From: Dyadobacter jiangsuensis
Lineage (GTDB): Bacteria > Bacteroidota > Bacteroidia > Cytophagales > Spirosomataceae
Length of the DNA stretch: 64,000 nucleotides
Direction of reading: 5' to 3'
NCBI RefSeq assembly: GCF_003014695.1
Contig: NZ_PYAS01000005.1
Span: 186,001 to 250,000, forward strand
Positions 9,818-63,440 of this stretch are shown here, in pieces. The notes beneath the pieces were generated by a model that was not told the DNA's origin, made no database searches, and worked only from the letters and a program-made list of their open reading frames with translations. The translations under genes and the position numbers were made by a program. Positions within the stretch are counted from its first letter, which is position 1. Each line of letters starts with the position of its first letter.

Positions 9818-9842
9818 TGTCCGGTATTGTCAAGTGTTGTCA
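9818..9842 (-). repeat. Short 10-bp phased GTCA repeat between murD and ftsW
   Basis: TGTCC/TGTCA recurs at 9818, 9828 and 9838, exactly 10 bases apart, with AAGTG between the second and third. The unit matches those of the larger arrays at 15391-15509 and 42481-42642. Only one arm is present here, and it ends seven bases before the murD stop codon. Confidence 0.7.
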
Positions 9843-9849
9843 GAGATGG

Positions 9850-11193
9850 TTATTGGATGAGGTTTCTGACGGCAGCCTTGAATTGATCACCCCGGTCCTC
9901 GTAGTTTTTGAATAAATCAAAACTCGCGCAGGCGGGCGATAGCAGAACGATATCCCCCGGCACGCCCCATTCCCGTCCTTTGTTGACGGCATCCTGGACG
10001 TCCTCGGTCGCATATATTTGCGGGACCTTGCCTGAAAAATAGTTTTCCAGCTTTGCCGGGTCTTTCCCCAGCACGATCAGTCCTTTTACTTTATTCTTTA
10101 CCAGCTCCTCAATTTGTGAATAATCATTTCCTTTATCCACACCGCCGGCAATCAGGATCACCGGCTGATCGAAACTACCTAACGCATAATATACCGAATC
10201 CACATTGGTAGCCTTGGAATCATTAATGTATGCCACACCGCCAATCACTTCTACCTGTTCCAAACGGTGCGGCGCGTTCGTGAACGACTTCAAGCCTTCA
10301 CTGATCTTTTCCGCATCGATACCCAGCAGCTGTGCAACCGATATTGCTGCCAGCGCGTTGATCGCATTGTGCGGTCCCTTGATCGGCAGCTCACTGAATG
10401 CCTGCTCAAATGCACGGCCATTGACATTGGAAATCAGCTGACCGTTTTCAAGGTACGAGCCCGATTCCAATACATTTTCCAGCGAAACCTGCACCTTCCC
10501 AACCGCCGGGCTCCGCTTTCCGAGCTCCTTTTCGATCACTTCACTTTCTTTATAATAAATGAAATGATCCGACGCCGTCTGGTTACGGATAATGTTAAAC
10601 TTGGAATTCACATAATTCTGAAAATCATACCCATAACGATCCAGGTGATCGGGAGTGATATTCAAAAGAACAGAAATATAGGGATGGAAATCGACGATAT
10701 TATCCAGTTGGAAGCTGCTGATTTCCAATACATAATAATCAAAATGCTTTTCAGCAACCGCCCACGCGAAACTGTCGCCGATATTCCCGGCGAGGCCTAC
10801 ATTCAGGCCTGCTGTTTTGAGCAGATGATAGGTCAGTAAGGTGGTGGTGGTTTTGCCGTTGCTACCCGTAATCGCAATGAGTTTCGCGTCCGTATAGCGC
10901 GAGGCGAATTCAATTTCAGAGATCACCGGGATCCCTTTTTCCTTCAATGCGACGATCAAAGGCACCTTGTCGGGAATGCCCGGGCTTTTCACTACGAGGT
11001 CGCTTTCGAGGATGCGTTCCTCCGAATGCTGCCCCTGCTCAAATGGAATATTTTCACTGTTCAGAATGTCAGCGTACTTCTGATGCAACTGGCCCTTATC
11101 CGATAAAAAAACTTCAAAACCTTTGGATTTCGCAAGAATCGCGGCACCGGCGCCGCTTTCTCCGCCACCCAGAATCGTCACCTTTTTTTGCAC
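9850..11193 (-). CDS. murD: UDP-N-acetylmuramoyl-L-alanine--D-glutamate ligase
   Basis: MurD adds D-Glu to UDP-MurNAc-L-Ala. The 447-residue protein has the N-terminal Rossmann loop ILGGGESGAGAAILAK (about 7-22), the P-loop ITGSNGKTTTTLLTYH (about 108-123), a central domain with NITPDHLDRYG, and a C-terminal domain with YINDSKATNVDSVYYAL, the classic MurD SKATN motif. The start is GTG at 11193 (MQKKVTILGG). It is the first gene of the separated second half of the dcw cluster. In a standard cluster it would directly follow mraY, which here lies 26 kb away on the same strand. Confidence 0.97.
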   Translation of the reverse strand: MQKKVTILGGGESGAGAAILAKSKGFEVFLSDKGQLHQKYADILNSENIPFEQGQHSEERILESDLVVKSPGIPDKVPLIVALKEKGIPVISEIEFASRYTDAKLIAITGSNGKTTTTLLTYHLLKTAGLNVGLAGNIGDSFAWAVAEKHFDYYVLEISSFQLDNIVDFHPYISVLLNITPDHLDRYGYDFQNYVNSKFNIIRNQTASDHFIYYKESEVIEKELGKRSPAVGKVQVSLENVLESGSYLENGQLISNVNGRAFEQAFSELPIKGPHNAINALAAISVAQLLGIDAEKISEGLKSFTNAPHRLEQVEVIGGVAYINDSKATNVDSVYYALGSFDQPVILIAGGVDKGNDYSQIEELVKNKVKGLIVLGKDPAKLENYFSGKVPQIYATEDVQDAVNKGREWGVPGDIVLLSPACASFDLFKNYEDRGDQFKAAVRNLIQ

Positions 11194-15390: not shown

Positions 15391-15509
15391 TTATTGTCAT
15401 TGATTGTCAGAGGTTGTCATTGATTGTCATGTGTTGTTTTAAACTATAAAGAACAACAAATGACCATTCCTGACTACACTTGACCTTTCTGACCACATCT
15501 GACCACTTA
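15391..15509 (-). repeat. Inverted array of 10-bp GTCA-core repeats between rpsI and rpsB
   Basis: On the plus strand GTCA starts at 15396, 15406, 15416 and 15426, exactly every 10 bases, with a degenerate fifth unit at 15436. After a short AT-rich centre (about 15438-15452) the same motif returns in reverse: TGAC at 15461, 15471, 15481, 15490 and 15500. The two arms pair imperfectly, best near the centre (GTTGTT with AACAAC, then TCAT with ATGA). It begins directly after the rpsI stop and ends about 80 bases before the rpsB start. It may act as an RNA hairpin or as a phased protein-binding site; see findings. Confidence 0.85.
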
Positions 15510-42033: not shown

Positions 42034-42447
42034 TTATTCTTCGTCTTCTTTTAAAATGATTTTCTTGGGTGGGGTAAGGTTCTCGACCAACCCTTCGGCC
42101 TGCACTTTCTCCACCACCACCGACTGTTTCCCGGCCCGCTCATACTCCGCGTGAATGGAGGTATATTCCGCTTTCAGGTCGTCGACCTCCTTTTTGAGCT
42201 TGATGCTTTTCCGCACATAATCCTCCGACTGGAACCCGATCCGCTCATAAGCGACAAGCAATATGATCACCCAGCCGAAATAGTAAAAGTATTTCACCGG
42301 CAAACGCTCTTCCTGGCCCGGCAACTTCTCGCCGAAAACCTTGTCGAGCGGCAAAAACTTGTTCAGCCAGTTGAATAGCGAATATTCCCGCTTCCGCTTC
42401 GGCGGTTTGGGCGGAACTGGTTTCGGTCGTTTTCTATTTTCAGCCAT
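42034..42447 (-). CDS. ftsL: Cell division protein FtsL-like
   Basis: FtsL is a small bitopic protein that with FtsB and FtsQ activates septal wall synthesis. The ATG at 42447 (MAENRKRPKPVP) gives 137 residues: a basic, Pro-rich cytoplasmic part, one membrane segment (about 65-80, YYFGWVIILLVAYERIG) and a periplasmic coiled coil (VRKSIKLKKEVDDLKAEYTSIHAEYERAGKQ). A longer in-frame start at 42501 would run into the repeat array. Sequence conservation is low; identity rests on topology and its position between rsmH and ftsI. Confidence 0.85.
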   Translation of the reverse strand: MAENRKRPKPVPPKPPKRKREYSLFNWLNKFLPLDKVFGEKLPGQEERLPVKYFYYFGWVIILLVAYERIGFQSEDYVRKSIKLKKEVDDLKAEYTSIHAEYERAGKQSVVVEKVQAEGLVENLTPPKKIILKEDEE

Positions 42448-42480: not shown

Positions 42481-42642
42481 GTTTTGGTCAAGTGTTGTCA
42501 AGTGTAGTCAGGTGTTGTCATGAATGGTCATTTATTGCGGTTCGCCGCGCGGTAAAATATTCTCACTCAATAATATGTATACTATTTCTGACAATACTTG
42601 ACGATAAATGACAACACTTGACAATACCTGACCACACCTGAC
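42481..42642 (-). repeat. Inverted array of 10-bp GTCA-core repeats between rsmH and ftsL
   Basis: On the plus strand GTCA ends at 42490, 42500, 42510, 42520 and 42530 (five units, exactly 10 bases apart). After a 58-base AT-rich spacer TGAC starts at 42589, 42599, 42609, 42619, 42629 and 42639 (six units, exactly 10 apart). The shared inner bases are mostly AGTGTT. Outer and inner units pair to give a long imperfect hairpin. It begins about 20 bases after the rsmH stop and ends about 35 bases before the ftsL ATG. Confidence 0.9.
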
Positions 42643-42662: not shown

Positions 42663-43580
42663 TCACGCCTTCGTCGCAATCCGCAACTTAGCACTTCTGG
42701 CGCGCGGGTTTACGGCTACCTCTTCCGCGGTCGCTTCGATGGGCTTGCGCGTGACGCTTTTCAGCGGTTTGAGCTCGTTCCCATAAAAGTCCTTCTCGAC
42801 TTCTCCGTAAAACTTCCCTTTCTGGATGTAATTTTTCACCAGCCTGTCTTCCAGCGAATGGTACGACATCACCACGAGCCTGCCGTCGGGCGTGAGCACC
42901 TCGGGCACCTGCGTGAGAAACTCTTCGAGCACCGCCAGTTCATCATTCACCTCGATCCGCAACGCCTGGAACACCTGTGCGAAATACTTGTTCTCGCGGT
43001 GCTTGGGCGCATAGCGCATGAGAATGCTTTTCAAGTCATTAACGGTTTCGATTGGCGTATTGTATCGGGCGGCGATAATTGCCTCCGCGGCTGTGCGGGC
43101 GTTGGTCACTTCTCCATACATCCCCAGAATGCGTTGCAATTCTCCTGCCGAGCGTGTTTTAAGCACCTCGCGGGCCGTTTTCTCGGTATTGGGATTCATG
43201 CGCATGTCCAGGTCGGCGTCAAAACGGGTAGAAAACCCCCGCTCAGGCGTGTTGATCTGGTGCGACGAAACGCCAAGATCAGCCAGGATGCCGTTCACCT
43301 GCGGCGCCTTGTTGAGTTTCAGATAGCGCTTCAAATGCCTGAAATTGGCCGGGATGAATGTAAACCGTGGATCATCCTTGAATTCCAGCGCGTTAGCGAC
43401 CGCATCGGGGTCCTGATCGAAAACCAGCAACCGGCCGGTCGTAAGCCTTTCCAGAATAGCCCTGGAATGCCCGCCGCCACCGAAAGTGACGTCGACATAA
43501 ACGCCATCAGGCTGTATTTGAAGGCCTTCCAGGCACTCGGACAACATGACGGGAACGTGGTAGGTACTAGGCGAATCCAT
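42663..43580 (-). CDS. rsmH: 16S rRNA m4C1402 methyltransferase
   Basis: RsmH (MraW) methylates N4 of C1402 in the 16S rRNA decoding site with SAM. The 305-residue protein begins YHVPVMLSECLEGLQIQPDGVYVDVTFGGGGHSRAIL (about 7-43, SAM motif), has LGVSSHQINTPERGFSTRFDADLDMRMNP and later RALRIEVNDELAVLEEF and VVMSYHSLEDRLVKNYI. All are family signatures. It is the first gene of the cluster in this window; mraZ, which often precedes it, is absent, and the divergent TlpA-like gene begins 140 bases upstream. Confidence 0.97.
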   Translation of the reverse strand: MDSPSTYHVPVMLSECLEGLQIQPDGVYVDVTFGGGGHSRAILERLTTGRLLVFDQDPDAVANALEFKDDPRFTFIPANFRHLKRYLKLNKAPQVNGILADLGVSSHQINTPERGFSTRFDADLDMRMNPNTEKTAREVLKTRSAGELQRILGMYGEVTNARTAAEAIIAARYNTPIETVNDLKSILMRYAPKHRENKYFAQVFQALRIEVNDELAVLEEFLTQVPEVLTPDGRLVVMSYHSLEDRLVKNYIQKGKFYGEVEKDFYGNELKPLKSVTRKPIEATAEEVAVNPRARSAKLRIATKA

Positions 43581-63347: not shown

Positions 63348-63440
63348 TAATTTTGAATGATTGAATGATTGAATGACCGAATAATTTCTATTCAGTCATT
63401 CAATCATTCAGTCATTCAATCATTCAGTCATTCAAAATTA
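63348..63440 (+). repeat. Inverted array of 8-bp repeats after nrdJ
   Basis: The left arm (63348-63383) runs TAATTTTGAATGATTGAATG... in 8-base steps (TGAATGAT units). The right arm (63389-63440) is its reverse complement, (ATTCARTC) units, and ends ATTCAAAATTA. Loop ATTTC. The right arm (52 bases) is exactly 16 bases, two units, longer than the left (36). It lies directly after the nrdJ stop and would fold into a long AU-rich hairpin, perhaps serving as a terminator. Confidence 0.9.

Follow-up and report, generated by a model that had tools for sequence, protein, structure and literature searches.

The gap between rsmH and an ftsL-like gene of Dyadobacter jiangsuensis carries two opposed runs of units built on a GTCA core. 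It lies within a contiguous stretch of 64,000 nucleotides that was analysed as a whole and is termed the window here. A sequence-only reading of the window had described a run of five GTCA units and, beyond a spacer of 58 bases, a second run of six units in reverse, each with a constant step of 10 bases, and the coordinates confirm this layout: GTCA begins at positions 42487, 42497, 42507, 42517 and 42527, TGAC begins at 42589, 42599, 42609, 42619, 42629 and 42639, and the 58 bases from 42531 to 42588 separate the two series (Table 1). The names given to the genes at this gap and at a second site, between rpsI and rpsB, also hold, with Pfam assignments to MraW/RsmH (PF01795), FtsL_2 (PF19579), S9 (PF00380) and S2 (PF00318). 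The statement that the period never slips is correct for the rsmH-ftsL arms; it fails for the arrays of other genomes and for rpsI-rpsB, where the proposed second instance of the design does have two facing arms, with one 9-base step in the right arm.

Table 1. Array sites of the window and the genes and spacer segments around the rsmH-ftsL array.
Feature	Window positions	Strand	Remarks
Left arm, GTCA-N6 five times with a step of 10 bases	42487..42536	+	
Right arm, TGAC core six times with a step of 10 bases (GTCA on minus strand)	42583..42642	-	
GCGGTTCGCCGCGCGGT, one base off a 17-base repeat found within arrays	42537..42553	no strand	
Remainder of spacer, without recognised feature	42554..42582	no strand	
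rsmH (mraW)	42663..43580	-	stop codon 20 bases from array
ftsL-like gene	42034..42447	-	ATG at 42447 (start chosen by us), 39 bases from array
rpsI-rpsB site, left arm, four units	15396..15435	+	
rpsI-rpsB site, right arm, TGAC core five times with one step of 9 bases	15445..15503	-	first TGAC start 15461
One-armed site, four units	9819..9858 (contig 195819-195858)	+	overlooked in the sequence-only reading

A search of the 64-kb window for runs of at least four GTCA or TGAC motifs at any constant step from 5 to 30 bases returned only the two rsmH-ftsL arms and the left arm at rpsI-rpsB (15396). The position of the one-armed site holds an array in nine of ten compared species. No Rfam family matched the window at the gathering score, and no terminator-like site was found between 42300 and 42800. 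Near window positions 63390-63440 there is an 8-base tandem repeat, in which TTCA/ATTC words occur six times at a step of 8.

The sequence-only reading had proposed a scan of this genome and its relatives for opposed GTCA runs at 10-base spacing, which revealed a large family. Across the 8,265,804 bases of the genome (47 contigs), the four-unit pattern GTCA(N6GTCA)x3 has 470 exact matches (215 + 255), compared with 0 + 0 for the pattern read backwards. Exact four-unit matches are present in 34 of 47 relatives within the genus, at 2 to 610 per genome with controls at 0, and the arrays are dispensable because the other 13 of the 47 have no such match. Beyond the genus, the plain pattern scarcely exceeds background, with one of 31 genomes carrying it (control, 2) and, in a wider sample of the phylum, ten of 394 other genomes (control, 6). 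A clear excess of arrays is therefore shown for the genus Dyadobacter only. The facing three-plus-three pattern, sought in named genomes with no control scan alongside, occurs in at least 102 stretches; among the matches listed these are mostly from Dyadobacter, with others from Spirosoma, Fibrella, a Flavobacterium, Prolixibacteraceae and a few metagenome bins. Viral contigs contain the direct pattern in at least 120 stretches, compared with 105 for the control, and the facing pattern once. We found no account of these arrays in open PMC papers, and the available portions of PMC12306157, PMC3733652 and PMC6006769 neither describe them nor name Dyadobacter or Spirosoma.

Across 190 units that were read, five of the ten positions vary widely. 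Position 9 is T in 97% of units and C makes up at most 7% at positions 5-8 and 10, and the core was read as TDGTCA. The near-identical units of simple tandem repeats (LSSR, STRR) are not seen, some arrays of one genome (G033) excepted. A spacing of 10 prevails: arrays of ten genomes contain 225 steps of 10 bases, 21 of 11, 6 of 8, 5 of 9, 15 of 20 and a few others. The step is near one helical turn, with a mean near 10.0 that drifts from the 10.5 bases per turn. Very long arrays of G033 (C1:2447186-2447514 and C1:2452840-2453168) repeat as super-units of 40 bases, which points to recent expansion in blocks of four units.

Polarity is fixed as well. In 48 genomes there are 282 inward-facing matches, in 30 genomes, compared with 10 outward-facing matches in five and controls of 0, where overlapping matches within one array are counted separately. 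Four of the five outward loci that were read lie in gaps between convergent genes by our own gene calls. In a sample of 1,417,878 bases of the D. jiangsuensis genome, of which the part on contig C2 was chosen partly for its known arrays, we found 30 clusters with 43 arms (control, 0). All 13 facing pairs of this 1.42-Mb sample point inward and, at the threshold used, 17 of the 30 clusters are one-armed, so that facing pairs are not the general rule. Cluster density is patchy on contig C1, with a single cluster in its first 400 kb as opposed to ten in a later stretch of 396 kb.

Most arrays that were measured start very close to the end of a gene. Stop codon and array are separated by a median of 8 bases, measured on 94 stop-codon sides in 80 facing arrays with simple reading-frame calls of our own. 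In the 17 tandem gaps of the 1.42-Mb sample, 15 arrays start no more than 25 bases from the stop codon, one overlaps the reading frame by 29 bases and one lies 296 bases away; distances on the start-codon side are looser. Co-directional genes flank 55 of 83 facing pairs, and the polarity of single arms relative to genes was uninformative. Among facing arrays selected by pattern, divergent gaps are under-represented (6/74 vs 85/390 in the background, p=0.006, leaving out six of the 80 arrays that do not have two flanking genes). The 1.42-Mb sample shows no bias in gene orientation, with five convergent and five divergent gaps among 27 placed clusters (three of the 30 were unplaced). An enrichment of convergent gaps in the pattern-selected set (26/74 vs 60/390) was set aside, as it was not confirmed in D. 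jiangsuensis (5/27 vs 111/779, p=0.57).

Intrinsic terminators are predicted in one of 17 convergent gaps with facing arrays, compared with 32 of 80 without arrays, and there is no such contrast in tandem gaps (4/50 vs 54/454); orthologous repeats are included in both counts. The 1.42-Mb sample is too small for this comparison, with counts of 0/5 vs 30/111 (p=0.33) in its convergent gaps.

To follow the arrays through evolution, we compared 100 kb around rsmH in ten genomes that are 83-90% identical to D. jiangsuensis (G000) across 40 genes (65,943 columns). The tree from these genes served for the identities only, and an RsmH tree was set aside because it mixed orientations. Every array in this region sits on one of six positions, each of which is common to five to nine of the ten species and none of which is private, and the array positions are therefore old. 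Fresh insertion differences between close relatives, as expected of a MITE or another mobile element, were thus seen at none of the six. Presence is patchy, with arrays at 43 of the 60 genome-position pairs. When four sites were read side by side, several species had a short gap free of arrays, unit number and order differed between species, and the loop was still alignable at two of the four; between sites, arms and spacers differed and no duplicated target was seen by eye. Free variation in copy number with no conserved phasing had been named by the sequence-only reading as grounds for simple repeat expansion. The species do differ in unit number and order, yet they retain phasing, core and position.

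The rsmH-ftsL gap holds an array in ten of 30 species that were read, one of them decayed. In G034, which has 2 exact matches genome-wide, the array in this gap is decayed. Six of the 30 carry a third repeat family in this gap (L073, L075, L080, L081, L083 and L084). At rpsI-rpsB, two of ten species have another short repeat instead, and other repeat families are present in G003, G034 and L292 (G042). In these species other repeats take the place of GTCA arrays in the gap, as if the slot had been refilled.

Constraint on the units was assessed in 77 orthologous stretches aligned without gaps, each with a minimum of 40 bases and 85% identity, where a position was counted if either genome has a unit and 26 columns with discordant phase were set aside. 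Mismatches amount to 28/955 (2.9%) in the GTCA core and 166/1059 (15.7%) at positions 5-8 and 10, with 20/217 at position 9 and 228/2644 in the flanks. The core thus changes five times more slowly than the variable positions of the unit (p=4e-24, an optimistic value, as genome pairs share history). Units lost in both genomes escape the count. Because of this difference in mismatch rate within orthologous stretches, we read the slow core as purifying selection.

The sequence-only reading had offered three explanations for the rsmH-ftsL array: a site bound by protein, an RNA hairpin controlling readthrough, and a relic of slippage. The transcript could fold into a long hairpin that would act as a terminator, attenuator or 3′-end protector, which we consider unlikely. 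The two arms are 78% complementary across 51 bases and the predicted RNA fold of the site is strong (-67.9 kcal/mol, z -6.1 against shuffles), and a hairpin would suit both the placement of arrays directly past stop codons and the fewer intrinsic terminators in convergent gaps that carry them. However, pairing was equally good when the order of units in one arm was permuted (mean z -0.13 +/- 0.12 for the plus strand, n=83, and 0.01 +/- 0.12 for the minus strand) or when one arm was filled with random hexamers from the genus pool (mean z -0.02 +/- 0.18, n=79). True arm pairs exceed cross-site pairs in stability as long as arm length is uncontrolled (-50.6 vs -47.6 kcal/mol, sd 1.1, 83 pairs), and the effect is absent once it is controlled. 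A similarity between arms (mean z 2.07 vs 1.005, sd 0.112, 80 facing arrays) was dropped, as that set mixed genera and within-pair and genus-pool controls abolished the signal. Irregular steps in one arm have no counterpart in the other: among 279 paired steps, 30 are unequal or irregular in a single arm and 0 are equally irregular in both, where 0.8 would be expected by chance. No difference between sense and antisense strand emerged from 55 tandem cases (mean +0.9 kcal/mol, sd 6.7). Tests for features of intrinsic terminators or structured RNAs (matched stem pairs beyond the core, a T-tract) were negative, in line with the lack of terminator-like sites at this array and of Rfam families in the window. 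The fold therefore follows from the cores and is not refined. Since arms pair no better than random-hexamer arms, a selected hairpin is disfavoured, and recognition by a putative protein that binds double-stranded DNA becomes the favoured reading. A motif recognized in single-stranded RNA would also fit less well, because most facing pairs lie between co-directional genes, where one arm would suffice, and binding to double-stranded DNA would be the simplest remaining reading.

The arrays might be sites for gyrase or a nucleoid protein, like BIMEs, in which phased flexible steps aid DNA wrapping and supercoils are relaxed at gene ends. Such a role would account for the 10-base phasing, the intergenic position and the shortage of divergent gaps in the pattern-selected set; an exact GTCA core with fixed polarity exceeds what bendability demands, however, and the shortage is absent from the D. 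jiangsuensis sample, which leaves this role improbable. Functionless expansion by slippage is very unlikely. It agrees with the differing unit numbers, the super-units of G033 and the other short repeats that occupy the same gaps in other species, but it leaves unexplained a core that evolves five times more slowly than its neighbours, and a polarity of 282 to 10. Equally doubtful is a mobile-element relic, left by a non-autonomous element that spread a single time with inward-facing ends, even though a common consensus and polarity at dispersed sites, the array-free gaps of some species and the scattered distribution could all be its traces. The shared positions in the 100-kb comparison speak against it, as do the differing arms and spacers at the four sites read side by side, and while it could explain an origin it could not explain core constraint.

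A link to RAYT transposases is conceivable for such a relic, since Bacteroidetes RAYT genes are flanked by atypical secondary structures with copies elsewhere, according to the accessible part of PMC6006769. These transposases were rejected as mobilisers of the arrays: they occur in 47 of 48 genomes, by eye their numbers are unrelated to those of the arrays, and the 3 kb around each of three RAYT genes that were checked, among the five of D. jiangsuensis, contain no array. The arrays share with REP/BIME elements and RAYTs an intergenic, dispersed and palindromic design, mostly between co-directional or convergent genes. REPs, in the text available from PMC3733652 and PMC6006769, are palindromes of 20-40 bp tagged by GTAG or CGTC, whereas the arrays consist of many 10-base GTCA units that have neither tag. 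A 17-base repeat, ACCGCGCGGCGGACCGC, one base different from the spacer segment at 42537..42553, is present in 32 of 48 genomes. Among 30 sampled loci it sits at an array in 10 and next to a RAYT gene in two. It is likely to be a REP insertion, and arrays seem to be favoured targets of this REP-like insert. By eye, the same repeat also lies within apparent tRNA sequence at L277 and L280, near 1500.

The reading that we prefer, at a probability of about 0.42, is that the arrays are degenerate sites for a putative protein that reads TDGTCA on double-stranded DNA, one unit per helical turn, and that they mark or insulate the ends of transcription units. We infer protein binding, its double-stranded target and the boundary role from the family as a whole, its 10-base step, inward polarity, conserved positions and constrained core, and from the lack of arm matching beyond the cores. 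The protein would assemble along an array and, where both arms are present, two facing assemblies would point toward the short loop. The resulting complex would mark or insulate the end of the transcription unit, as a roadblock terminator or a topological boundary. This last role is suggested because most measured arrays start a few bases after a stop codon, and the scarcity of intrinsic terminators in convergent gaps with facing arrays would fit it. We think that reading by a putative protein is the firmer part of the proposal and the marking of gene ends the less firm. Among the three explanations of the sequence-only reading, protein binding is thus favoured by the constrained core, near-helical step, fixed polarity and chance-level arm pairing, with the protein itself only putative. 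Against it count the one-armed clusters, the absence of orientation bias, the lack of a terminator contrast in tandem gaps, the relatives without matches, the few outward arrays and the drift from the helical repeat; the boundary role must also contend with arrays that lie within clusters of ribosomal and of division genes, where strong termination could be harmful. A more sweeping version, in which a core-reading protein on phased arrays behind genes would separate neighbouring transcription units and replace ordinary terminators in a chromosome-wide boundary system of Bacteroidota, is rather unlikely.

If a protein does read the arrays, gene ends in Dyadobacter carry a nucleoprotein system that is dispersed and phase-locked, and it would offer a natural and easily tested case of a boundary made by weak sites through their spacing and polarity. 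The array-free species are a ready comparison for the array-rich ones.

Several known systems resemble the arrays in part. The Foldback elements of Drosophila also have inverted ends built of short tandem units, but these are eukaryotic and mobile. In ParR-parC and omega-parS plasmid centromeres, rows of short units each bind one protein dimer and the DNA is wrapped with a protein helix, and parC of R1 consists of two parts on either side of a loop, as described in the available part of PMC5016525. The arrays may work like such split iteron arrays, yet they cannot be filed there: parC is a partition locus tied to a par operon, whereas the arrays occupy many chromosomal sites, have inverted arms in their facing pairs and show no par operon among five neighbouring proteins named. 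The TAACTGA heptamer arrays of Beggiatoaceae, Cyanobacteria and Bacteroidetes are likewise short intergenic repeats in many copies, proposed as regulator sites; in the accessible text of PMC4679880 they differ in being one fixed 7-mer, directly repeated and mostly just before start codons.

Phage-like contigs (L390, L392, L398, L403, L420, L475 and L484) contain GTCA units, mostly GTCAC, at exact 10-base steps. They share the core, the step and a degenerate remainder with the Dyadobacter arrays, but run in one direction only and lie inside a reading frame. By eye, these reading frames resemble replication genes, and the phage-like arrays are probably 10-base origin iterons; some are followed by AT-rich repeats.
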